Assembly: GCF_900106035.1 (NCBI RefSeq)
Contig: NZ_FNUC01000003.1
Coordinates: 1,729,501-1,793,500, forward strand
DNA length: 64,000 nt
Reading direction: 5' to 3'
From: Jiangella alba
Lineage (GTDB): Bacteria > Actinomycetota > Actinomycetes > Jiangellales > Jiangellaceae
Shown here piece by piece: positions 6,214 through 20,455 of this stretch. The translations under genes and the position numbers were made by a program. The notes beneath the pieces were generated by a model, which saw nothing but the letters and a program-made list of their open reading frames with translations, searched no databases and was not told the origin of the DNA. How positions within the stretch are numbered: the first letter of the stretch is position 1; each line of letters starts with the position of its first letter.

Positions 6214-7653
6214 TCAGGGTGCGGCGATGGGGGCGAGCGCGCGGACGTCGTCGGGGGAGGCGAGGTCCTGGACGGCGACGAAGACGGTGCGGACGCCGCG
6301 ATCGAACAGCTCGCGGTACCGCAGCGCCGTCTGCTCGGCCGTCGCCGCGTGGTGCTTGCGCGCGTACGCCGCCGCGGTGGCGTTGCCGCGGGCCCGTTCG
6401 ACTCGCCGCCAGACGTCGTCGCGGTCGCGGCCGACGATGGGGAGGTCGAGGACGGTGACGGCGACGTCGCGGCCGGTGCGGTCGCGGTGCTTCTCGAACA
6501 CCGCCAGCCGTTCGTCGAAGCCGTCGTCGGTGCGCAGGTTGCAGGCGTCGCCGAGGGCCGCGGCGATGCGCAGCGACCGGTCGCCGGACCCGCCGACGAC
6601 GATCTCCGGCCGTCCCGCGGGCCGTGGGTAGGACGTCGTCTCGGGCAGCTCGACCCGGTCGCCGGAGTACGCCTTGGTGCCCGGCGCCCACAGCGCGCGG
6701 ATCGTCTCGATGGCCCGTTCCAGCTCGTCCAGCCGCTCCTTCGGGCCCGGGAAGGCCAGCCCGTGCACCTCGTGCTCCCGGCCGAACCAGCCGGCGCCGA
6801 TGCCGACGAACGCTCGGCCGCCGCTGAGCACGTCCAGCGTCGCGACCGACTTCGCGATGATGCCGCCGCGGCGGAACGTCACCGGGGTGCACAGCGGGCC
6901 CAGGCGCAGGCCGGTGCCGAGGCCGGCGATCATCCCGAGGGTGGTGAACGGCTCCGGGATCGGGTCCCAGGCGCGGCCGACCTGCGGGATCTGGATCAGG
7001 TGGTCCATCAGCGCCAGCCCGGCGAACCCGGCGTCGTCGGCGGCCAGCGCGACCTCCTTGAGCCAGCCGGCCGGGTCGTCGCCCCACGGGAAACGGGAGA
7101 CCTGCAGGATCACCTGGCGCTCGCCCGGCGTGTCGGCGGCGGGCGCCGCGGGGGTCGCGACGGCGTCGTCGCGCGGCGCGTCCGCCGTGACCGTGACGAC
7201 CAGGTCCCAGCCCTCGCCGTCCAGCTCGGCCGCGACCTCGCCCGCGCGGCGCAGCTGGCCGGCCAGCGCGGGCGCCGGGACCGGCCGGTCGCGGGCGGCG
7301 TTGCGGGCCCGGCACAACTCGGCGGGGGTGTCGAAGCGGACGGCGACGGCGGGCAGCCCGGCCTCGCGGGCGACGGCGAGGTAGCCGCGGCGGCGATCGG
7401 CGTCGAGGCCCAGCGTGTCGACGACGACGGTGAGCCCGCGCCCGGCCCGCGCGGCGACGATGCGGTCGAGCAGCGCGAACGCGTCGTCCGTCGCGTCGAG
7501 GTCGTGCCGGCCACTGCCCACGACGCCGCGCAGGTCGTCGGAGGACACGATCTCCTGCGCGCGGTAGTGGTCTCGCGCCCACACCGACTTGCCCGCGCCG
7601 GAGGCGCCGACCAGCACCACCAGAGCGGGGTCCGGGATCGGCTGTGTCGTCAC
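6214..7653 (-). CDS. P-loop kinase fused to F420-type LLM oxidoreductase
   Basis: A 479-residue cytoplasmic fusion. Residues 1 to about 165 are a polynucleotide-kinase-like AAA_33 domain: Walker A GASGAGKS at about 16-23, VSSDDLRG after strand 2, and VVVDTLGLDADRR as the second acidic motif. After a Pro/Ala linker near 170-185, residues about 190-479 form a luciferase-like TIM barrel, with HLIQIPQVGRAWDP, GTGLRLGPLCTPVTFR and GGRAFVGIGAGWFGREHE. These are typical of actinobacterial F420-dependent LLM oxidoreductases. The kinase may phosphorylate a nucleic acid end or a small molecule; the oxidoreductase would use F420 or FMN. GTG 7653 has TAACCT 6 bases upstream and no ribosome site. Domain calls are firm; the joint function is unknown. 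Confidence 0.88.
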   Translation of the reverse strand: MTTQPIPDPALVVLVGASGAGKSVWARDHYRAQEIVSSDDLRGVVGSGRHDLDATDDAFALLDRIVAARAGRGLTVVVDTLGLDADRRRGYLAVAREAGLPAVAVRFDTPAELCRARNAARDRPVPAPALAGQLRRAGEVAAELDGEGWDLVVTVTADAPRDDAVATPAAPAADTPGERQVILQVSRFPWGDDPAGWLKEVALAADDAGFAGLALMDHLIQIPQVGRAWDPIPEPFTTLGMIAGLGTGLRLGPLCTPVTFRRGGIIAKSVATLDVLSGGRAFVGIGAGWFGREHEVHGLAFPGPKERLDELERAIETIRALWAPGTKAYSGDRVELPETTSYPRPAGRPEIVVGGSGDRSLRIAAALGDACNLRTDDGFDERLAVFEKHRDRTGRDVAVTVLDLPIVGRDRDDVWRRVERARGNATAAAYARKHHAATAEQTALRYRELFDRGVRTVFVAVQDLASPDDVRALAPIAAP

Positions 7654-10897: not shown

Positions 10898-11781
10898 CCG
10901 GTGCCCATGCAGGTGACATCCGCGACGTCGGCAGGCAGGTCCGTGGCGAACGGCGGGATGTCCCTGGTGACGTTCCAGGCGGTGCGGACGACGACGTCCT
11001 CCGGCACCTCTCCGGACGGGGCGATGGTCCGGAACGCCTCGGTGAGGTCGACGCTGATCGTCAGCGATGTGCCCGCCTCGATCAGGACGACCTCGGCCAC
11101 GGCGTCCATGCCCATGATCGCTTCCTGGGCGCCGGGATTCTCGAGCAGTGCGCTGGAGTTGGGGAAGCCCAGGTCGGCGGGTGCGGTGATCTCGTAGGTG
11201 GAGCCGGACGACGTCGTCTCGAGGTGCCGCGGCTCGCCGGTCGCGGCGGCGAGGAACTCCAGCGGCTCGACGATCAGCAGGTCGCCGGGCTGGAGGTCGG
11301 CGCCCGTGAGCTCGGCGGACGCGGCGTCGGTCAGGTCGATCCAGTGGGTGCCGCACGTCTCCACGGTGTTCGGGTGCCACATGAGCATGGCGGTGTCGGT
11401 GTAGACGAACCGGAGCTCGCCGCCAGGGGCGGCGTCGGTGCTCATGTCGTCGGAGACGGAGACCGTCCGCTCCATGTACCGCGCCTCGAGGTCGAAGCGG
11501 ACCGTTTCCTCCATGAGCGTCATCGGGCCCATGCCGCCGCCGGTGATGCCGATGGTCTCGGTGTAGCTGCCGCGCCTGGCGGCCTGGAACGCGTCGACGG
11601 TGTCCCAGGGGACGGCGTCGCCGGGCGCCGTTTCGGCCGCCGGCCGAGGTGCGTCGGCGGCGCCGGACGGCGTCTCCCCTGCGCGGGCGCAACCCGCTGT
11701 GAGCACCGCGAGGACGGCGAGACCGGCGGCGGCACGGGCCGTCACGCGCAGTGTCACAGATGTTCGAAGCGTGGCTGTCAC
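10894..11781 (-). CDS. Putative lipoprotein of unknown function
   Basis: A 295-residue exported protein. The N-terminus is long and basic (MTATLRTSVTLRVTARAAAG), followed by a hydrophobic stretch and a lipobox, LTAGC, with Cys at residue 31. The mature part, rich in Thr, Glu and Asp, looks like an LppX/LprG-style beta-rich fold (alternating ETVRFDLEARYMERTVSV, GGELRFVYTDTAMLMW), but I cannot assign it with certainty. Two further cysteines (in ETCGTHWIDL and DVTCMGTG) could form a disulfide. GTG 11781 has TAGAGT 6 bases upstream and no ribosome site, so it is probably leaderless. No conserved enzyme motif is seen. Confidence 0.75.
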   Translation of the reverse strand: MTATLRTSVTLRVTARAAAGLAVLAVLTAGCARAGETPSGAADAPRPAAETAPGDAVPWDTVDAFQAARRGSYTETIGITGGGMGPMTLMEETVRFDLEARYMERTVSVSDDMSTDAAPGGELRFVYTDTAMLMWHPNTVETCGTHWIDLTDAASAELTGADLQPGDLLIVEPLEFLAAATGEPRHLETTSSGSTYEITAPADLGFPNSSALLENPGAQEAIMGMDAVAEVVLIEAGTSLTISVDLTEAFRTIAPSGEVPEDVVVRTAWNVTRDIPPFATDLPADVADVTCMGTG

Positions 11782-11787
11782 GAGCGG

Positions 11788-11793
11788 ACTCTA
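11788..11793 (-). promoter_or_regulatory. -10 element (TAGAGT) for leaderless mRNA
   Basis: TAGAGT on the minus strand stands 6 bases before GTG 11781 with no ribosome site. The same hexamer and spacing precede the gene at 2628. Confidence 0.5.
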
Positions 11794-11822
11794 GCGGCAA
11801 TCCAAGCCGCCCGCGAGCAGGG

Positions 11823-12266
11823 TCAGGTGCGGCCGCCGTGTGCCCAGCCGGAGCAGGTGCTGGTGCCGTCGATGCACACCTGCACCGACACCGCGCGGCC
11901 CTCGGGGAAGCTGAGGTTCCAGTCGTCGGCCGCGGTGTCGATGGTGTACGTCGCCGTCCCGAACCCCTCCACCGACAGGTAGGCCTTGAGGCCGTGGCCG
12001 TCGGTGGAGTTCTCGCGGGCGTAGAAGCCCTCGCCGTAGGCCCAGAAGCCGACCTCGTAGAACAGGCCGGTGCCGGTGTAGAGCGACGCGAACACGTCGC
12101 GCCCGCCGGCGTCGTCGTCCGAGGCGTACGACTCGTCGTGGGGGTACCAGGTCCGGGCCGCCTCCGCGTCGGAGGTGCCCGCCCCCGCGGCGGTCACCCC
12201 CGTTCCGGCGACCGTGGCCGCCAGGCCGCACAGCACCATCGTCGTCAGTCGTCGTGTCGTCCGCAC
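11823..12266 (-). CDS. Small secreted protein of unknown function
   Basis: A 147-residue protein with a Sec signal peptide (basic MRTTRRL, hydrophobic core, cleavage after about residue 31). The mature 115 residues are acidic and aromatic-rich (GLFYEVGFWAYGEGFYAREN) with two cysteines near the C-terminus (VQVCIDGTSTC) suited to one disulfide. The pattern of alternating aromatic strands resembles small secreted beta-sandwich proteins of actinomycetes, but no family is recognised. The ATG has GAGGAG 9 bases upstream. It lies between a lipoprotein gene and the response regulator of the D-Ala operon, all on the same strand but separated by 40-75 bases. A link to that operon is possible but unproven. 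Confidence 0.72.
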   Translation of the reverse strand: MRTTRRLTTMVLCGLAATVAGTGVTAAGAGTSDAEAARTWYPHDESYASDDDAGGRDVFASLYTGTGLFYEVGFWAYGEGFYARENSTDGHGLKAYLSVEGFGTATYTIDTAADDWNLSFPEGRAVSVQVCIDGTSTCSGWAHGGRT

Positions 12267-12341
12267 GTCTCCTCCTCAGGTCGTCGTGACAGGACGCCTT
12301 CGACCGTCGGCCGGGCCGCTTGCCGCGCGCTTGCGCCGCGC

Positions 12342-13013
12342 TTACGGCTGGTCGAGGAGGCCGTGCTCGTGTGCGAAGACGACGATCTGGACGCGGTCGC
12401 GCAGCGCCAGCTTGCGCAGGATCGCGCCGACATGCGTCTTCACCGTCGACTCGCTGGCGAACACGAGGCCGGCGATCTCGGTGTTGGACAGCCCGCGCGC
12501 CACCGCCGTGAACACCTCGCGCTCCTTGTCCGTCAGCGACAGGTACGCCGCCGGCACCGCGGTGCGGGACCGGAACTGGCCGTCCAGCAGCGTCGCGAGA
12601 TCCTGCGGCGCCAGCACCGCGTTGCCCGCGTACACCGTGCGGATCGCGTCGCGCAGCTGCAGCGGCGTGGTGTCCTTGAGCAGGAACCCGCTGGCGCCGT
12701 ACCGGATCGCCGTCGCCGCGCGGTCGTCGAGGTTGAACGTGGTCAGGACGACGACGCGCACCGGCGTGGACCGGCGCGACACCCGGTCGGGCAGGAAGAC
12801 CTGCCGGGTCGCCTCGACGCCGTCCATGTCGGGCATCCGGATGTCCATGAGGACGACGTCGGGGGAGAGGTCGTCGACCAGGCGGACCGCCTCGAGCCCG
12901 TCGCCGGCCGAGCCGACCACCGTCATGCCGTCCTGGGCGTCGACGATGACGCGGACGCCCTCGCGGAACAGCTCCTGGTCGTCGACCAGGAGCACCCGGA
13001 TGTCAGCGGTCAT
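12342..13013 (-). CDS. NarL/LuxR-type response regulator of the D-Ala operon
   Basis: A 223-residue response regulator. The receiver domain (about 1-120) has the acidic pair VDDQ at its start, the phosphoacceptor in LMDIRMPDMDG near residue 55, and the conserved Lys in FLLKDTT. The LuxR-type DNA-binding domain (about 155-217) reads LTDKEREVFTAVARGLSNTE through STVKTHVGAILRKL. ATG 13013 overlaps the kinase stop (ATGA), so it is coupled to the kinase and is the last of five overlapping genes starting with a VanX-like dipeptidase. Known glycopeptide-resistance regulators (VanR) are OmpR-type, so this pairing is unusual. It probably controls its own operon, but no binding site is proven. Confidence 0.93.
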   Translation of the reverse strand: MTADIRVLLVDDQELFREGVRVIVDAQDGMTVVGSAGDGLEAVRLVDDLSPDVVLMDIRMPDMDGVEATRQVFLPDRVSRRSTPVRVVVLTTFNLDDRAATAIRYGASGFLLKDTTPLQLRDAIRTVYAGNAVLAPQDLATLLDGQFRSRTAVPAAYLSLTDKEREVFTAVARGLSNTEIAGLVFASESTVKTHVGAILRKLALRDRVQIVVFAHEHGLLDQP

Positions 13014-14341
13014 GCGCCGCCCGCCCGCACGGGCACCCACGCCGTGGCGGTGAACGTCGACCTGCCGTCCTCGTCGCGGCGGCGGACGTCGAGGCGGCCG
13101 CCGACGGACTCGAGGCGGCGGCGCATGCCGTCCAGCCCGGCGCCGCCGCTGGCCTCGCTCGCGGCGAACGGCGACGGCGCGACGACGTTGCGGACCTCGA
13201 TGCGCAGCTCGCCCTCCCAGTGCCGCTCGACCTCGACGGGGGTGTCGCGGCGGCCGTGCTTGATGGCGTTGGTCAGCATCTCCTGCAGCACCCGGAACGC
13301 GACCACCTCCAGTTCCGGCGGCAGCGGGCGCGGCACCCCGATCTCCGTCGACACCACCTCGTGCCCGCTCGCCCGCACACCGTCGACCAGGGTGTCGAGG
13401 CCGGCCGGCGGGGCGTCGGGCTGCTGGGTGTCGGCCAGCACCTGCCGGACGTCGCGCAGGGACGTCCGCGCCGACGTCGCGATCTTCGCCATGGTGTCCT
13501 TCAGCGCCTTCGGGTCGGTGTCGTCGAGGTACTGGGCCGACTCGGCCTGCGCCAGGATGACGGCCAGCGAGTGCCCCACCACATCGTGCACGTCGTTGGC
13601 CAGCCGCGCCTGGTCTTCGCGCAGCCGGGCGATCTCGCGGGCCTGCTCGGTCTCGCTGACGGCGCGCGCGGCGTCCTCCTCGGCGGCCTCCTGCGACGCC
13701 CTCGACAGGCGCGCGCGGTCGCCGAAGCGCAGCGTCAGCCCGGCCAGCCACGGAGCTCCGAGCGCCGCCGCGCCGATGAGCGCGGCCGTCAGCTGCCACG
13801 TCGTGCTGAGCTCGCGGATGGTGTCGACCACGCTCTCGTTGCCGGCCAGGCCGGCCAGCCCGCCGAGGCCGCGCGAGTTGACGATGGCGATGACGATCAG
13901 GCCAGCGAGCGGGATGGACAGCGCGCTCAGCCACACCGTCACCGTGCTGCCCCAGCGCGCCGTCCCGAACGCGACCGCGGCGATCGTCACCTGCACGAGC
14001 ATGAGGTCGATGCCGGCCAGCAGCTGCAGCCCGCACACCCCCCACACCAGCGCCAGCGCGGCCGCTGGCAGCCGGCGGCTCAGCCCGACGGCGGCGGCGG
14101 TGCCGATCGCGACGAACACCAGCTCGACCCGGTTCCCCGGCAGCACCCATGCCGTCGCCGCCTCGTACAACCCGAGGAACGCGACGATCGCCGCCACGGC
14201 GAGGTCGGGCACCCACGCCCGCAGGTCGGCGACCGGGTCGCGGCGCGGTCGCCGACCGGCCGGCGGCGCGTCGGTGTCGAACGGGGCGATGGCGGGTCCT
14301 CCGGCGGAGTCGGTGCGGGCGTGTCCCAGCAATGGAACCAT
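13010..14341 (-). CDS. Sensor histidine kinase (HisKA_3/NarL-partner type)
   Basis: A 443-residue kinase. After a cytoplasmic Pro/Arg-rich start come about five to six membrane segments (about 45-205) with almost no external loop, so it may sense a membrane-embedded or membrane-proximal signal such as lipid II. Residues about 215-248 look coiled-coil. The HisKA_3 box is RLANDVHDVVGHSLAVILAQ with the phosphoacceptor His 252. The ATPase domain has MLTNAIKHG (N box) and GAGLDGMRRRLESVGG (G box). ATG 14341 was chosen because GGTGA precedes it; GTG 14350, which overlaps the ddl stop, is the alternative. It is coupled to the response regulator downstream. Its ligand is unknown. Confidence 0.92.
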   Translation of the reverse strand: MVPLLGHARTDSAGGPAIAPFDTDAPPAGRRPRRDPVADLRAWVPDLAVAAIVAFLGLYEAATAWVLPGNRVELVFVAIGTAAAVGLSRRLPAAALALVWGVCGLQLLAGIDLMLVQVTIAAVAFGTARWGSTVTVWLSALSIPLAGLIVIAIVNSRGLGGLAGLAGNESVVDTIRELSTTWQLTAALIGAAALGAPWLAGLTLRFGDRARLSRASQEAAEEDAARAVSETEQAREIARLREDQARLANDVHDVVGHSLAVILAQAESAQYLDDTDPKALKDTMAKIATSARTSLRDVRQVLADTQQPDAPPAGLDTLVDGVRASGHEVVSTEIGVPRPLPPELEVVAFRVLQEMLTNAIKHGRRDTPVEVERHWEGELRIEVRNVVAPSPFAASEASGGAGLDGMRRRLESVGGRLDVRRRDEDGRSTFTATAWVPVRAGGA

Positions 14342-14346
14342 GGCAC

Positions 14347-15285
14347 TCACCCGAGGACGTCGCGGACGAGCAGGTCGAGCAGCTCGGCGTACGACACACC
14401 GGCGGCGGCGAACATCTTCGGCACCTGCGACTGCTCGGTGAAGCCGGGCATCGTGTTGACCTCGTTGAGCACCGGCCCGGCCGCCGTCAGGAAGAAGTCC
14501 ACCCGGGCGACGCTCGCGCAGCCGAGGGCGTCGAACATCGCGACGGCGGCGTCCTCCAGTTCCTTGCGCTCGGTGTCGGCCAGGTCGGCGGGGATGCGGA
14601 AGTCGGCGCCGCCGCCGTACTTCGTCGCGAAGTCGAACAGCCCGTCCACCACGATCTCCAGCGCGGGCGCCACCGTGCGTGACCCGTCCGGCCGCCCGAG
14701 CACGGCGAGGTCGACCTCGCGGCCGGCGACGACGTCCTCGACGAGGACGCGGCGGTCCAGCGCGAACGCGGCGTCCAGCGCGGCCGGCAGCTCGTCCGCG
14801 GCGCGGACGAGCGACACCCCCTGGCTCGACCCCGCCGAGACCGGCTTGACGACCACCGGGTGGGTCCAGCGGTGGGCGGGCGCCGTCGACGGGGTCAGCA
14901 GGACGCCGGGCGCCACCGCGATCCCGAGATCGGCCGCTACCAGCTTCGTCGCCCACTTGTCCATCGCCAGCGCCCCGGCCAGCACGCCGGACCCGACGTA
15001 CGGGACGCCGGCCTGATCGCACAGCGCGGCCAGCGTGCCGTCCTCGCCGCGCGGGCCGTGCAGCACCGGGACGGCGACGTCGCAGGTGCGCAGGACGTGG
15101 ATCGCGTCGGTGAGGTCGACGGGACAGCCGTCGCCCTGGCGCCAGGCGCCGTCACGGCCGATGGTGAGCCGGACGACGGCGTACCCGGCGGACTCCAGCG
15201 CGCCGCCGACGGCCGCCGCCGAGGCCAGCGAGACGTCGTGCTCGCAGTTCTGCCCGCCGCCGATCACCGCCACGCGCGCCCTCAT
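14347..15285 (-). CDS. D-alanine--D-alanine (or D-Ala--D-X) ligase, ATP-grasp
   Basis: A 312-residue ATP-grasp ligase that joins D-Ala to a second D-amino acid for peptidoglycan. Visible motifs are CEHDVSLASA with Glu 15 (first D-Ala subsite), MDKWATK, VVVKPVSAGSSQGVSLV, LVEDVVAGREVDLAVLG and the Mg site NEVNTMPGF. The specificity loop reads FDFATKYGGG with Tyr 223 where D-Ala-D-Ala and D-Ala-D-Ser ligases carry an aromatic residue and VanA-type D-Ala-D-Lac ligases have a His motif. The CEHDVS opening recalls Van ligases. ATG 15285 has GGAG 8 bases upstream and overlaps the alr stop (ATGA). It is probably an accessory ligase; the second substrate is open. Confidence 0.92.
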   Translation of the reverse strand: MRARVAVIGGGQNCEHDVSLASAAAVGGALESAGYAVVRLTIGRDGAWRQGDGCPVDLTDAIHVLRTCDVAVPVLHGPRGEDGTLAALCDQAGVPYVGSGVLAGALAMDKWATKLVAADLGIAVAPGVLLTPSTAPAHRWTHPVVVKPVSAGSSQGVSLVRAADELPAALDAAFALDRRVLVEDVVAGREVDLAVLGRPDGSRTVAPALEIVVDGLFDFATKYGGGADFRIPADLADTERKELEDAAVAMFDALGCASVARVDFFLTAAGPVLNEVNTMPGFTEQSQVPKMFAAAGVSYAELLDLLVRDVLG

Positions 15286-16487
15286 CGGACGCTCCGGAGG
15301 GTGGGTGCGGCCGCTTTGCAATGAGCACCTATGGGCACCGGTGCGTAGGGGTGCTCATTGCAAAGGGCCTGACGGGTGACGCGCGGGCCGATGCCGGTGA
15401 CGATCTCGTGCTCGATCGTCCCGGCCCAGCCGGCCCACTCCGCGGCCGTCGGCTCGCCGTCGTCGCCGGGCCCGAAGACCGTCGCGACCTCGCCGGGCGC
15501 GACCTCCTCGTCGCCGAGGTCGACGACCGCCTGGTCCATCGACAGCAGCCCGACCAACGGCCGGCGGCGGCCGCGGACCAGCACCTCGGCCCGTCCGGAC
15601 GCGGCCCGCGGCAGCCCGTCGGCGTACCCGAGCGGCAGCAGCCCCAGGTGCGTCGCGACCGGCGCCGTCCACGCGTGCCCGTACCCGACCGGGGTGCCGG
15701 CGCGGACCCGGCGGACGGTCACAACCGGCGCGGTCAGCGTCAGCGCGGGCCGCAGCCGCACCGTCCGGGACGGGTCGATGCCGAACAGGCCGGCGCCGAC
15801 GCGGACCAGCGTGTGGTGGGTGCGCGGGTCGGTGAGGGTCGCGGCGGTCGCGGCGAGGTGCCGGTGCGGCGGGCGCAGCCCGAGCGAGCGGGCCACCTCG
15901 ACGCCCCAGGCGAACCGGGTGCGCCCCGTCGCGTTGGACCCGTCGGCCGGGGCGTCCGCGCAGGCCAGGTGGCCCATGACGCCGTCGACCCGGATGAGGC
16001 CGCGCTGCTCGGCCAGGCGGGCCGAGCTACACAGCCGGGCCCACTCGGCCGGCGGCGCGCCGTCGCGGGCCAGGCCGGTGTCGAGGTGGAGGTGGACGCG
16101 GGCGCCCGGCGCGGCGGCCGTGACGGCGTCCAGGTGCACGCGGCTGGGGACGGCGAGGTCGATCCCGGCGGCGACGGCGGCGGCGAAGTCCGCGTCGACC
16201 GGGTTCAGCCAGCTGAGGACGGGCGCGCGCACACCGGCCGCGCGCAGCGCCAGCGCCTCGTCGACGCTGGTGACGCCGAGCCGGGTCGCGCCCGCGGCGA
16301 GCGCCGTCCGGGCCACGTCCGCGGCGCCGTGCCCGAACCCGTCCGCCTTGACGACGGCCATCAGCGCCGAGCCCGGCGCGTGGGCGGCGATCGTCCGCGT
16401 GTTGGCGGCGACGGCGGCGAGGTCGGCGGTGAGGGTGGCGCGGCTGGTCATGGCCTGCGGGTGCGCGTCGATGGTCGCGGCGCTCAC
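15282..16487 (-). CDS. alr: Alanine racemase with palindrome-encoded C-terminal tail
   Basis: A 401-residue PLP enzyme that makes D-Ala from L-Ala (or D-Ser from L-Ser in VanT-like cases). The PLP lysine is Lys 47 in MAVVKADGFGHG, and the catalytic Tyr lies in TPVGYGHAW about 220 residues later. Also visible are HLHLDTGLARDG and LGYADGLPR. The family normally ends soon after EIVTGIGPRV; here about 26 extra residues (ALCNEHPYAPVPIGAHCKAA onward) follow, nearly all encoded by a 52-bp palindrome at 15314-15365. GTG 16487 overlaps the stop of the VanX-like gene (GTGA), and the stop overlaps the ligase start. It is cytoplasmic. Substrate preference between Ala and Ser is unknown. Confidence 0.92.
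   Translation of the reverse strand: MSAATIDAHPQAMTSRATLTADLAAVAANTRTIAAHAPGSALMAVVKADGFGHGAADVARTALAAGATRLGVTSVDEALALRAAGVRAPVLSWLNPVDADFAAAVAAGIDLAVPSRVHLDAVTAAAPGARVHLHLDTGLARDGAPPAEWARLCSSARLAEQRGLIRVDGVMGHLACADAPADGSNATGRTRFAWGVEVARSLGLRPPHRHLAATAATLTDPRTHHTLVRVGAGLFGIDPSRTVRLRPALTLTAPVVTVRRVRAGTPVGYGHAWTAPVATHLGLLPLGYADGLPRAASGRAEVLVRGRRRPLVGLLSMDQAVVDLGDEEVAPGEVATVFGPGDDGEPTAAEWAGWAGTIEHEIVTGIGPRVTRQALCNEHPYAPVPIGAHCKAAAPTLRSVR
15314..15365. repeat. 52-bp palindromic element inside alr
   Basis: Two perfect 16-base arms, CTTTGCAATGAGCACC and its exact complement, flank 20 bases whose centre, CACCGGTG, is itself palindromic. The whole unit can form one long, slightly interrupted hairpin. 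It lies in frame in the 3' end of alr and encodes LCNEH...GAHCK. Because of the symmetry, the other strand also reads LCNEH...GAHCK. It may be an inserted REP/RPE-like element, an attenuator before ddl, or both. Confidence 0.8.
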
Positions 16488-17116
16488 GCGGCCACCAGGT
16501 GCGCGCCGATCGGGCCGTACAGCGCCGCCGGCGCGCCCGTCGTCAGGGCCCAGTAGCGGTCGCCGTAGCTCCAGTGCCACCACTCGGTCGGGTAGTTCAC
16601 CAGCCCGGCCGACCCGAGGACGTCGGCCAGCAGCGCACGGTGGACGCGGGCGTTGGCGGAGATGTCGCGCGCGGCGAAGTAGCAGGCGCCGTCGCTCTGC
16701 TCCGGCGTCGCGTCGATGGGCGTGCCGAGGTCCAGGTCCCGCCCGTCGCGGTCCACCAGCGTGAGGTCGACGGCCGCGCCCGCCACGTGCGGCGCGACCC
16801 CGACCGGTGCGACGAACCGGCTGGTCAGACGCTCCAGCTCGGCGAGGTCGTGGTCGATGCCGGGGTGGGCCGCGGACACCTCGGCGGCGTACCGGGCGAT
16901 GATCGCGCGCTGGTCGGCGATGCTGCGGTGCCCCTCGACCACCCGCAGCCCGATGCCGTCGGGGAGGCGGTCGCGGGCGAGGAGCAGCCGCTGGGCGAGG
17001 GAGACCCGCACCCGCGCACGGGCCGGGCCGAACGGTTCGGTCAGCTCCACCAGCGGCTCGCCCTCGTCTTCGACGGGGATCGCGGAGACGCGCGGGTCGG
17101 ACAGCAGGATCGTCAT
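16484..17116 (-). CDS. VanX-like D-Ala-D-Ala dipeptidase (peptidase M15D)
   Basis: A 210-residue zinc dipeptidase. The VanX ligand set is complete: HVAGAAVD gives His 110 and Asp 117 (VanX His116, Asp123), and EWWHWSYGDR gives the catalytic Glu 178 and zinc His 181 (VanX Glu181, His184). The transition-state Arg corresponds to VVEGHRSIADQ, Arg 64. No signal peptide is present, so it is cytoplasmic, where VanX enzymes destroy D-Ala-D-Ala made by the house-keeping ligase. The ATG at 17116 has TAGCGT 7 bases upstream and no ribosome site, so the five-gene operon probably begins as a leaderless mRNA here. Its presence beside alr and ddl points to remodelling of the D-Ala-D-X pool. Confidence 0.93.
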   Translation of the reverse strand: MTILLSDPRVSAIPVEDEGEPLVELTEPFGPARARVRVSLAQRLLLARDRLPDGIGLRVVEGHRSIADQRAIIARYAAEVSAAHPGIDHDLAELERLTSRFVAPVGVAPHVAGAAVDLTLVDRDGRDLDLGTPIDATPEQSDGACYFAARDISANARVHRALLADVLGSAGLVNYPTEWWHWSYGDRYWALTTGAPAALYGPIGAHLVAA

Positions 17117-17123
17117 GACCAGC

Positions 17124-17129
17124 ACGCTA
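17124..17129 (-). promoter_or_regulatory. -10 element (TAGCGT) of the vanX-alr-ddl-kinase-regulator operon
   Basis: TAGCGT stands 7 bases before the ATG at 17116. The mRNA would begin at or next to the start codon. The same hexamer and spacing occur before the genes at 28913 and 35260. Confidence 0.6.
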
Positions 17130-17248
17130 GGAACCGCGGCCGGTGCGGGACCTCCACCTGAGGTGCCGAAGCGCTGTCCTCGGGTACGAGATCCCTGACC
17201 TGCGGGTCCAGGGGTAGGCTGCGCGCACCGGCGATGGGGGAGAGGCGC

Positions 17249-18709
17249 GTGCGGCGGTGGACGGGGTGGTTCAACCGGCCGATCCTGTGGCTCGTCCTCG
17301 CTCTCGTCGCGGCCCTTGCGGGCCTGGTGTTCGCCACCGAGGCGGCGCGGGCGTTCTCCCGCCCCGCCGAGCCGACCGGCATCGCCCGGTGCGACCGTGA
17401 TTTCGACACGGGTTGCCTCACCAGCCGCGACGCGGTGCCGGAAACGCCTTTCGACCGCCGCGGCAACCGCTTCACCGGGATCCGGACGTGGCGACTGGAC
17501 GTCCAGGGCGACTGGCCCCGCCGACCGTACGAGCGACGGCTCGAACTGGAACTCCGCAGCCAGGCGGGCCGAGACGAGCTGGGCGCAGGCATCACGGTGG
17601 AGGTCGTCTTCGCCGGCTCCGAGGCGGTCTGGGTTCGGTTGCCGTCCGGAACCGTGCTCGAGACGACAGCACATCCGTGGCAGGCCGTCCCGTCCGGCGG
17701 CTTCCTTGCGCTGATGTTCGTCGGCGGTGCGGTGTGGGCTACGGACATCGCGGTCCGCAGCGCACGCCGGCGCCGGTCATGGGTCCGGGCCGGGCACGCC
17801 GAGGTGGAGCCCGGCATCGCGATGGCCCTGTTCGGCGTCGGCGCCCTCGGCGTCCTGGTGCAGTTCGGTTACCCGCGGCCTACGCCGCTCGGTGTGGCCG
17901 GGCTGGTCCTGACCGGCTGGGTTGGCTGGGTCGTCGTGCGGCACCGGCACCGGCTCCGGCGGGAGCGGAGCGATCGGCCCGTCACCGCGTCGCGGTACCT
18001 CGCACGCCGTCGTCGCGCCGACCTGATGGATGAGCTGACGCGGCTCACCGTCACCGCAATGCCCGGCGCGGACCGCCGCAACGGCCACCTCGCCGTGGTC
18101 GTCCGGCCGTCAGCGCCGCGCCAGTGGGCGCTTGACTCCGAAGGTGTCGCGGCCGCGGCCGGGCGCGCGCTGGCGGCGCGTGGCCGGGACGGCTTCGCGC
18201 CTGACCTGACGGCCGGTGGCTGGATCCGGGTCGGCGACGGTGTCCGGCTCACCCGCGGGATTGGCGTCGACGGCCGGGCGGACGAGGACGGGCTGCTGGA
18301 GGTCAGCGCGCGCGACGACGGCACGATCCTGCTCGCCTGCGGACGGGGGACCTCGTACGCCGCCGAACCCTCGCCAGTGCCGAACGGCGGTGACCCGGCG
18401 CAGGGCCCCCCGGTGGTGCTGCCGGCGCTGCTGCTCGGGCTGACCCAGGCGGCTCTGCTGCTCGCCGCCGAGCTGTCGGTGGGCGACCCGCCGCAGGAGT
18501 GGACCGTGGGCGTGCGCATCGACCGGTTGCGTGGGGCCGTGACGCGTGAATCGCTGCTCGTCGGCGGCGATCCGCTGCCGCTCGACCGGGATTCCTACGT
18601 GATGGCCGTGCAGGCGAGCGCCGCGGACGTGCCGGGGGACTTCGACGGCATCAGCCGGCGCCTGCTCAGCCCGCTGTTGCGTGACCTCGGTGTCGCTGAC
18701 GCGACCTGA
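17249..18709 (+). CDS. Membrane protein of unknown function
   Basis: A 486-residue protein. A transmembrane helix at about residues 12-32 is followed by an outside domain to about 155 (with two cysteines, RCDRDFDTGC). Three more hydrophobic segments lie between about 155 and 230. A soluble, probably cytoplasmic, C-terminal domain of some 240 residues starts SRYLARRRRADLMDELTRLT and includes GGWIRVGDGVRLTRGIGVDG. I do not recognise a family or catalytic motif. GTG 17249 is preferred over ATG 17234 because GGGGGAGAGG ends 3 bases before it. Codon use is slightly less GC-extreme than in its neighbours. It is divergent from the D-Ala operon with 132 bases between, so a link is possible but not shown. 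Confidence 0.75.
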   Translation: MRRWTGWFNRPILWLVLALVAALAGLVFATEAARAFSRPAEPTGIARCDRDFDTGCLTSRDAVPETPFDRRGNRFTGIRTWRLDVQGDWPRRPYERRLELELRSQAGRDELGAGITVEVVFAGSEAVWVRLPSGTVLETTAHPWQAVPSGGFLALMFVGGAVWATDIAVRSARRRRSWVRAGHAEVEPGIAMALFGVGALGVLVQFGYPRPTPLGVAGLVLTGWVGWVVVRHRHRLRRERSDRPVTASRYLARRRRADLMDELTRLTVTAMPGADRRNGHLAVVVRPSAPRQWALDSEGVAAAAGRALAARGRDGFAPDLTAGGWIRVGDGVRLTRGIGVDGRADEDGLLEVSARDDGTILLACGRGTSYAAEPSPVPNGGDPAQGPPVVLPALLLGLTQAALLLAAELSVGDPPQEWTVGVRIDRLRGAVTRESLLVGGDPLPLDRDSYVMAVQASAADVPGDFDGISRRLLSPLLRDLGVADAT

Positions 18710-18719
18710 CTCGCGACGA

Positions 18720-18760
18720 CGTTCAGCGGAACGTCACCTTCCGTCATACTGGCCGTCAAC
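18720..18760 (+). promoter_or_regulatory. Probable PHO box (PhoP site) and -10 of phoD
   Basis: Four direct repeats resembling GTTCACC lie here: GTTCAGC, CGTCACC, CGTCATA and CGTCAAC. Their TCA cores are spaced 11, 10 and 12 bases, the spacing of actinobacterial PHO boxes. CATACT at 18745-18750 could be the -10. The position upstream of an alkaline phosphatase supports control by phosphate starvation. Confidence 0.55.
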
Positions 18761-18781
18761 CCGCGTGGGAAGCGTGCACCC

Positions 18782-20455
18782 ATGGATGTCCTCGCCCAGC
18801 GTCCCCTGTCCCGTCGTCTCTTCGTCACCGGCCTCGGCGCGAGCGTCGCGGCCGCCTCCGTCCCCAGCCTGATCCGCGTCGACGGCGCGCTGGCGGCGCC
18901 GCCCGGCACCGGCGGCGCGCTGCCGGACGGCGTCTTCTCGCTCGGCGTCGCGTCCGGCGACCCGCTGCCCGGCGGCGTCGTCCTGTGGACGCGGCTCGCG
19001 CCGGACCCGCTGAACGGCGGCGGCATGCCGGACCGTCCGTTCCCCGTCGAATGGGAGATCGCCGACGACGACACGTTCGCCCGCGTCGTCCGCCGCGGCC
19101 GCACCGTCGCGCTCCCGCAGCACGGCCACAGCGTCCACGCCGAGGTCGACGGCCTGCGGCCGGGCGCCGGCTACGCCTACCGCTTCCGCGCCGGCGGCCA
19201 GGTCTCGCCGGTCGGCCGCACGAGGACGGCGCCCGCGGGCTCCGTCGCCGCCGTCCGGTTCGCGTTCGCGAGCTGCCAGAACTGGCAGGACGGCTACTTC
19301 ACCGCTTATCACCATCTTGCCGGTGAGAACGTGGACTTCGTCGCGTTCCTCGGCGACTACATCTACGAGTCGGTGCCGCGCACCACCACCGTCCGCACCC
19401 ACGAGGGCACCGGCGAGCCGGCCACGCTGGCCGAGTACCGCAACCGGCACGCCCAGTACCGCTCCGACCCGAACCTGCAGGCCGCCCACGCCGCGTTCCC
19501 CTGGGTCGTCACCTGGGACGACCACGAGGTCGACAACAACTGGGCCGACGAGATCCCGCAGGACCCCGACCTCCAGACGCCCGAGGCGTTCCGGGCCCGC
19601 CGGCAGGCCGCCTTCCAGGCGTACTACGAGCACCTGCCGCTGCGCCGGGGTTCCCGCCCGCGCGGCCTCGACCTGCAGCTGTACCGGCGGCTGCGGTTCG
19701 GCGACCTCGTCGACCTGCACGTCGTCGACACCCGGCAGTACCGCTCGGACCAGCCGTCGACGCTGGAACAGGCCGAGACGGCGCCGCTGACGATGACCGG
19801 CGACGAGCAGGAGCGCTGGCTCACCGACGGGCTCACCGACGGCGGCACGCGGTGGAACCTGCTGGCCAACCAGGTGATGTGGGCGCAGAACGACCGCACC
19901 GCCGGCGAGGTCGACACGTTCGACTTCGACAACTGGGACGGCTACCGCGTCCAGCGCCGCCGGCTGCTCGAGCTGTTCGGCAGCGACGCCGTGACCAACC
20001 CGGTCGTGCTGACGGGGGACCGGCACTGCACCTGGGTCGCCGACCTGCACCCCGACTTCGACGACCCGGCGTCGCCGGTCGTCGGCGCCGAGATCACCGG
20101 CACGTCGATCTCGTCCGGCGGCAACTCCGACCCGGTCGCGTTCCAGAACACGTACCGGCCGATCGCCGCCGAGAGCCCGCACTGGAAGTACTTCGACAAC
20201 CAGCGCGGCTACGTCGTCTGCGACGTCACGCCGGAGCGGTTGCTCAGCTCGCTGCGCCTGGTCGACACCGTCTGGCAGCCCGACGGCGCCACGGTGCGGA
20301 CGGCGGCGGAGTTCGTGGTCGAGGCCGGCCGGCCCGGCGTCACCGTCGAGTACGAGGAGCCGCGGTCGGTGGAGCAGCGGGCCCAGGCCCGCCGCGACGC
20401 CGGCCCGCGCTACGACGTCGACGACGTGGACGAGACGGCCGACCTGCAGCGCTGA
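18782..20455 (+). CDS. phoD: Alkaline phosphatase PhoD
   Basis: A 557-residue secreted phosphodiesterase/phosphomonoesterase that frees phosphate from organic esters. The N-terminus is a Tat signal (LSRRLFVTGLGA) ending near GALAAPP. The PhoD N-domain begins GVFSLGVASGDPLPGGVVLW. The metallophosphatase core has RFAFASCQNWQDGYFTAYHH, FVAFLGDYIYES, VVTWDDHEVDNNW, VDTRQYRSDQPS and LTGDRHCTWVADLH, which supply the Ca/Fe ligands. Length fits the family. A PHO-box-like array upstream suggests control by PhoRP. The convergent VOC gene ends 6 bases downstream. This assignment is secure. Confidence 0.95.
   Translation: MDVLAQRPLSRRLFVTGLGASVAAASVPSLIRVDGALAAPPGTGGALPDGVFSLGVASGDPLPGGVVLWTRLAPDPLNGGGMPDRPFPVEWEIADDDTFARVVRRGRTVALPQHGHSVHAEVDGLRPGAGYAYRFRAGGQVSPVGRTRTAPAGSVAAVRFAFASCQNWQDGYFTAYHHLAGENVDFVAFLGDYIYESVPRTTTVRTHEGTGEPATLAEYRNRHAQYRSDPNLQAAHAAFPWVVTWDDHEVDNNWADEIPQDPDLQTPEAFRARRQAAFQAYYEHLPLRRGSRPRGLDLQLYRRLRFGDLVDLHVVDTRQYRSDQPSTLEQAETAPLTMTGDEQERWLTDGLTDGGTRWNLLANQVMWAQNDRTAGEVDTFDFDNWDGYRVQRRRLLELFGSDAVTNPVVLTGDRHCTWVADLHPDFDDPASPVVGAEITGTSISSGGNSDPVAFQNTYRPIAAESPHWKYFDNQRGYVVCDVTPERLLSSLRLVDTVWQPDGATVRTAAEFVVEAGRPGVTVEYEEPRSVEQRAQARRDAGPRYDVDDVDETADLQR

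Follow-up and report, generated by a model that had tools for sequence, protein, structure and literature searches.

A five-gene operon of Jiangella alba with a NarL-type two-component system and a candidate role in cell-wall precursor remodelling

A stretch of 64,000 nucleotides from Jiangella alba (contig NZ_FNUC01000003.1, positions 1,729,501 to 1,793,500; hereafter the window) carries an operon of five minus-strand genes, between positions 17116 and 12342, for a VanX-like dipeptidase, an alanine racemase-fold enzyme, a Ddl-fold ligase, a sensor kinase and a NarL/LuxR-type response regulator. The genome measures 7.68 Mb, and its nearest named relatives are J. muralis and J. endophytica. As judged from sequence, the five genes probably constitute an inducible accessory operon for precursor remodelling, similar in its working to the VanC/E/G type and producing D-Ala-D-X, where X is probably D-Ser; the probability of this reading is put at roughly 0.55. 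The first-pass annotation of this DNA had already proposed a Van-like operon for precursor replacement with a NarL-type pair, not resembling vanHAX; this interpretation is supported, but the argument which it drew from Tyr223 of the ligase was incomplete. All five genes were found where it had placed them. They had been called overlapping, which holds for three junctions, with overlaps of 4 nt, whilst ligase and kinase genes are separated by 5 nt. The genes are as follows, with bit scores from Pfam profile matches.

16484 to 17116, minus strand: M15D VanX-like cytoplasmic D,D-dipeptidase (Peptidase_M15, PF01427, 55 bits; conserved residues and AlphaFold model)
15282 to 16487, minus strand: alanine racemase-fold enzyme in which His replaces Tyr354, candidate serine or broad-specificity racemase (GTG start; Ala_racemase_N, PF01168, 187 bits; Ala_racemase_C, PF00842, 133 bits)
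14347 to 15285, minus strand: Ddl-fold ATP-grasp ligase, candidate for D-Ala-D-X, with Gln287 where DdlB has Leu282 (Dala_Dala_lig_C, PF07478, 169 bits)
13010 to 14341, minus strand: HisKA_3 sensor histidine kinase (PF07730, 52 bits; PF02518; orthologues in matching position)
12342 to 13013, minus strand: NarL/LuxR-type response regulator (Response_reg, PF00072, 86 bits; GerE, PF00196, 59 bits; orthologues)

The order of these genes is widely conserved. A scan for ligase relatives with one genome per species (GTDB 220) yielded 267, the best 80 of which were examined for gene order. The first-pass annotation had proposed looking for the five-gene order in other actinobacterial genomes, and the exact order dipeptidase-racemase-ligase-kinase-regulator indeed recurs in 66 of these best 80 named relatives, spread over approximately 14 genera (Jiangella, Nocardioides, Pimelobacter, Kineosporia, Microlunatus, Actinopolymorpha, Modestobacter, Cellulomonas, Actinoplanes, Hamadaea, Allorhizocola, Sanguibacter, Motilibacter, Frankia and others). 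All five genes are also present in this order in 10 of 11 other Jiangella genomes, G005 being the one without the cluster. Given these two counts, the conservation exceeds chance by far.

The nature of the putative product is suggested by one residue in the racemase and one in the ligase. Residues in both proteins were counted by script, using regular expressions or MAFFT columns, and the racemases were aligned with Streptomyces coelicolor Alr (5fac) and VanTG (4ecl) as references. The racemases of the clusters keep the pyridoxal phosphate (PLP)-binding lysine and the equivalents of the catalytic Tyr265 and of Arg219. Phe replaces Tyr43 in 99 of them, including that of the window. At the position of Tyr354, 104 of 105 have His, and the remaining one has Asn. 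A Tyr occupies the latter position in the housekeeping Alr of the window genome, in S. coelicolor Alr and in published Alrs. The Tyr265/Tyr354 pair fixes alanine specificity in Alr, VanT has Asn at position 354, and Alr with a Tyr354Asn substitution racemizes both Ala and Ser (PMC3485190, PMC5025676). With its His, the window racemase departs from the alanine-specific type. The single cluster racemase with the VanT residue Asn is that of Nocardioides sp. zg-1308 (locus L145), where a gene for an AT3 acyltransferase, discussed below, is kept too.

In the ligase (AlphaFold pLDDT 85.8), the position of Leu282 of Escherichia coli DdlB is occupied by Gln in 107 of 108 cluster loci (Gln287 in the window). 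In 31 housekeeping Ddls whose genes have no racemase gene next to them, the same position is Met (25), Val (3) or Leu (3), and in VanA and VanG it is Arg. In VanC2, mutation of the corresponding Arg322 reportedly shifts activity towards D-Ala-D-Ala. The reversion of VanC2 is the subject of a 1998 paper by Healy, cited in PMC12004154. The window ligase thus differs from a housekeeping Ddl both in lacking a hydrophobic residue at this site and in not being the sole or main Ddl, as three other ligases are encoded in the genome. Placement in a Ddl/Van tree, which the first-pass annotation had suggested, sets the cluster ligases apart: in a maximum-likelihood tree whose reference Van ligases were two VanA sequences, a solved VanG and a VanG-like one, they form a group of their own (93/90), separate from VanA plus VanG (100/99) and from the housekeeping Ddls. 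Tyr223 is present as Lys222-Tyr223, matching the Ddl of Mycobacterium tuberculosis. It speaks against D-Lac, but says no more about specificity, as it is common to ordinary Ddls. The omega-loop motif varies within both the cluster ligases and the housekeeping Ddls, and was therefore dropped as a discriminator. What does distinguish Ddl from Van ligases is the position of Gln287, and this residue and the His of the racemase both favor a dipeptide whose second residue is not D-Ala.

The pair of a His-racemase and a Gln-ligase is not confined to the five-gene clusters. At three loci (L102-L104), the first of which comes from a member of the family to which the window species belongs, racemase-ligase pairs adjoin an OmpR-type VanR/VanS, and the ligases nest within the cluster ligase group of the tree. 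These VanR and VanS proteins are 83-90% and 58-70% identical, respectively, to those linked to vanHAX in the window genome, and L103 and L104 also carry a VanY-like gene. On a Streptomyces anthocyanicus plasmid (NZ_CP109206.1; L108, 3882-7168), a 728-aa racemase-ligase fusion is followed by an AT3 acyltransferase gene. The fusion, annotated only as alanine racemase, has the same His and Gln as the cluster pair, and in the tree its ligase half lies with L105 and L107, both beside a VanR-like gene. The pair is thus accompanied by regulators of two types, and its partners include VanX-like, VanY-like and AT3 proteins.

These data bear on two other explanations of the operon. It could be an emergency supply of D-Ala-D-Ala for conditions in which precursor synthesis is blocked, e.g., by D-cycloserine or loss of D-Ala, with the dipeptidase recycling D-Ala-D-Ala derived from muropeptides. 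An omega loop of the Ddl type, as in the M. tuberculosis enzyme, the intact PLP-racemase core and the existence of NarL-type envelope-stress systems (AbrB1/B2, LiaRS, VraSR) would agree with such a role. However, both known substrate-selecting positions are changed together in approximately 105 loci, a dipeptidase for D-Ala-D-Ala encoded alongside would destroy what the ligase makes, and VanRS-linked relatives exist, which makes this explanation rather unlikely. Control of D-Ala recycling, the alternative offered in the first-pass annotation, is disfavored as well because of the Gln287 and His substitutions. Somewhat less likely still is that X is not D-Ser but Gly, D-Asn, D-Thr or similar, and that D-Ala-D-X serves wall architecture during growth or development, not resistance. 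His and Gln are unlike the Asn and Arg solutions found in VanT and VanG, and the cluster is common in bacteria for which a link with glycopeptides is not known, such as many Nocardioides; the Van-type two-component systems, VanY and AT3 genes of the relatives, on the other hand, suggest a glycopeptide theme.

In the remodelling reading, the candidate for the removal of D-Ala-D-Ala is the dipeptidase. The first-pass annotation credited it with all zinc-binding and catalytic residues, and His110, Asp117, Glu178, His181 and Arg64 are indeed invariant in 16 homologues, VanX included. The HxxGxAxD and ExxH motifs of VanX are found as APHVAGAAVDL...EWWHW in the window and in nearly all homologues. 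Against the NCBIfam equivalog model for VanX, the protein scores 34 bits with a cut-off of 320; therefore, it is a relative of VanX, not an orthologue. Its AlphaFold model (pLDDT 90.7) has VanX (1r44) as the top match in the PDB (E 4.6e-9), followed by VanYB and VanXYC. As the TM-scores are modest (~0.5), the modelled enzyme is a distant cousin of VanX. A secreted VanY-type carboxypeptidase was ruled out by the M15D motif and by the absence of a signal peptide in the sequence.

The five-gene set is accessory and dispensable for ordinary wall synthesis, since the genome also possesses a housekeeping Ddl and Alr, a Ddl-like gene linked to parAB and a vanRS-vanHAX cluster. The first-pass annotation had named, among the findings that would speak against its reading, that the operon ligase is the sole Ddl of the genome. 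This is not so: four Ddl-type ligases, the operon ligase included, are encoded in the window genome, and 2-3 in each of thirteen further genomes, which comprise G005, VanRS-linked relatives and cluster-bearing genomes. One Ddl of the window genome adjoins thiL, an arrangement as in Tsukamurella, and is of the housekeeping type. Another belongs to a complete cluster with vanR-vanS divergent to vanH-vanA-vanX (L011, 5724-10094; G000:C4, ~3663.7-3668.1 kb), of which the VanA-type ligase and the full-length VanX are proteins distinct from the operon ligase and dipeptidase. The second alanine racemase (C4:74066) is of the ordinary type with Tyr at position 354. The parAB-linked gene (L013, ~6346-7300; G000:C4:1202378), which also adjoins an amidase gene, is very divergent and has the longest branch in the ligase tree.

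The set has a single conserved promoter, located upstream of the dipeptidase gene, where the following elements were recognized.

17124 to 17129, minus strand: probable -10 element, TAGCGT, 13 nt ahead of the dipeptidase ATG (CCTAGCGT, conserved in Jiangella and Nocardioides)
17152 to 17168, minus strand: operator CGGCACCTCAGGTGGAG with palindrome CACCTCAGGTG, candidate regulator site, unique in the genome and conserved in relatives
17178 to 17185, minus strand: second, imperfect operator copy ACCCGAGG, from an alignment of upstream regions, with its spacing kept in L093

The position of the -10 element suggests a leaderless arrangement. The palindrome, of the ACCTCAGG type, is present in two copies, 21 bp apart. 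In the entire genome, CGGCACCTNAGGTGGAG has one exact match, and four other matches with 2 mismatches are at control level; loci of other Jiangella and of Nocardioides have it ahead of their dipeptidase genes as well. Because of this exclusivity and of its position, the predicted operator is probably the site bound by the NarL-type regulator.

The HisKA_3 kinase and the Response_reg-GerE regulator constitute a two-component system of the NarL/LuxR type, and their orthologues, those of the kinase being in the same position, are 45-97% and 71-98% identical, respectively. Between ligase and kinase genes, 29 of the best 80 loci contain an extra gene of ~1 kb, which encodes an AT3 acyltransferase (PF01757) in the two cases tested; beyond these, it was identified by reading translations. 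VanT also contains a PF01757 domain. Two features were located in this region of the window.

14284 to 14344, minus strand: remnant (~60 bp) of an AT3 acyltransferase gene at the kinase start, from DNA alignment with L049 and with the AT3 genes that L127 and L145 have kept intact
14329 to 14342, minus strand: conserved DNA element CATGGTTCCATTGC between ligase and kinase genes, with TGGTTCCATT invariant in 12 aligned loci

The start of the kinase is uncertain and may be downstream, since the first ~20 codons fall in the AT3 remnant. The element CRTGGTTCCATTRC is unchanged with or without a surrounding AT3 gene (L046-L055, L126, L145, L161, L184), and within intact AT3 genes it uses codons that are atypical for their GC content. 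A longer form of it is single-copy in the window genome. It might serve the kinase-regulator pair as a promoter or an operator. An antisense promoter of the extracytoplasmic function (ECF) type at TGGTTCCATT was considered and dropped, as the spacing, judged by eye, is not conserved. The gap between ligase and kinase genes, which ranges from ~0 to 1.3 kb and may hold both the extra gene and this separately conserved element, could indicate that the three enzyme genes and the kinase-regulator pair are adjacent but functionally independent units, and the VanRS-linked relatives indeed manage without a NarL-type pair. Such independence is, nevertheless, highly improbable in view of the order and strand shared in 66 of the best 80 loci from ~14 genera and of the unique operator upstream of the first gene.

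Starting from the established genes, gene order, conserved residues, operator uniqueness and other Ddl and Alr genes, the following mechanism may be proposed for precursor remodelling, with each enzymatic step drawn from residues and neighboring genes. The kinase would sense cell-wall or glycopeptide stress and phosphorylate the NarL-type regulator, which would bind its private operator and thereby activate the dipeptidase promoter. The dipeptidase would hydrolyze the D-Ala-D-Ala that the housekeeping Ddl supplies. The racemase, widened at the Tyr354 position, would provide D-Ser or another small polar D-amino acid, and the ligase, with Gln287 in its second-residue pocket, would make D-Ala-D-X. 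Incorporation of D-Ala-D-X by MurF may then yield precursors that are poorly bound by glycopeptides. The substrates, the inducing signal, the pairing of operator and regulator, and a resistance phenotype are thereby predicted.

Several points weigh against this mechanism. NarL-type pairs answer to many signals, and, to our knowledge, Gln at the DdlB-282 position is no recognized determinant of D-Ser specificity. The omega loop ATKY/xKY occurs in true Ddls too. A published specificity for His at position 354 was not found, and alanine racemase activity could remain. Further, the AT3 gene is deleted in the window species, and a BLASTP comparison of the AT3 part of VanT with the AT3 of the clusters revealed no similarity. 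On the latter result, a literal homology as a split VanT was rejected, and the tie with VanT therefore exists at the level of the Pfam family only.

Tentatively, and with somewhat less confidence than in the remodelling role itself, the His-racemase and Gln-ligase may represent a separately evolved route, widespread in Actinobacteria, that switches D-Ala to D-Ser or another D-residue to obtain glycopeptide-insensitive precursors, under a dedicated NarL-type system with a regulon of one operon. Actinobacteria are regarded as the origin of the van genes found in the clinic. Should the operon produce D-Ala-D-Ser or a similar precursor end, it would represent a large reservoir lineage of enzymes for precursor remodelling that lie outside the named van families and reach selectivity via other amino acids. 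The role of the AT3 part of VanT, here often a separate gene and sometimes lost, would then become testable, as would the question of how a NarL-type pair came to occupy the place that the OmpR-type VanRS has in related clusters.

One further feature overlaps with the operon.

15314 to 15365, no strand assigned: palindromic repeat element in the 3' end of the racemase gene, past the domain end (hairpin of -39.8 kcal/mol, z -6.4)

It is missing from the other Jiangella loci L046-L055. Its half-sites CTTTGCAATGAGCACC...GGTGCTCATTGCAAAG number ~140 in the window genome, 81 in G008 and 55 in G010, with few or none in other Jiangella, and it is an expanding element resembling repetitive extragenic palindromes (REP) or miniature inverted-repeat transposable elements (MITE). 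A copy is also present just upstream of the housekeeping alr gene (C4:74853-74904). Downstream of the regulator gene, a small protein with a signal-like N-terminus is encoded at 11823-12266, likewise in the Jiangella loci L046 and L049. No Rfam match was found in window positions 11000-19000, and a role in anti-phage defence was discarded, as PADLOC gave no relevant match.

Among known systems, LiaRS, VraSR and AbrB1/B2 share with the operon a NarL-type regulator tied to the vancomycin response, but do not form an operon with precursor-remodelling enzymes (PMC7581861). The pdx operon of Micromonosporales combines VanX-like and Ddl-like proteins with a regulator pair, but has a PALP dehydratase-like PLP enzyme instead of the racemase and a VanRS-like instead of a NarL-type pair (PMC8698665). 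The vanRS-vanHAX type, for D-Ala-D-Lac, represented in the window genome by L011, has a dipeptidase, a ligase and a two-component system in common, whilst vanH is found only there. A D-Ala-D-Lac operon was ruled out by the Lys-Tyr omega loop, the position of the ligase outside the VanA group and the absence of vanH from the operon.

In 2021, clusters of vanRSY with a racemase gene and a Ddl-like gene were described in Allonocardiopsis, Murinocardiopsis and Geodermatophilales, and a D-Ala-D-Ser-like mechanism was suggested (PMC8698665). They share the racemase-ligase pair, and L102-L104 appear to be of this type, but they have an OmpR-type VanRS and a secreted VanY where the window has a NarL-type pair and a cytoplasmic VanX-like enzyme. 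For Jiangellales, that paper lists vanHAX-type arrangements only, and the term NarL appears nowhere in it. Literature searches found no report of a NarL-regulated dipeptidase-racemase-ligase operon.

The closest functional parallel appears to be with the VanC/E/G/L/N operons of enterococci and clostridia, with which a ligase, a D,D-peptidase, a racemase and a two-component system are shared. The Tyr354 position is altered in both, to Asn in VanT and, with the exception of Asn in L145, to His in the clusters, where the racemase is soluble. The AT3 domain is part of VanT there, whereas about a third of the relatives of the window operon have a separate AT3 gene, which is lost in the window. The peptidase is an M15B VanXY there and an M15D VanX-like dipeptidase here, and an OmpR-type VanRS stands against a HisKA_3/NarL pair. 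The VanG and VanA ligases have Arg at DdlB-282 and belong to a clade separate from the Gln-bearing cluster ligases. Since the operon differs in the lineage of its ligase, the subfamily of its peptidase, the form of its racemase and the type of its regulator, it is not filed under VanC/E/G; by analogy, it is best read as working like that type without being a member of it.

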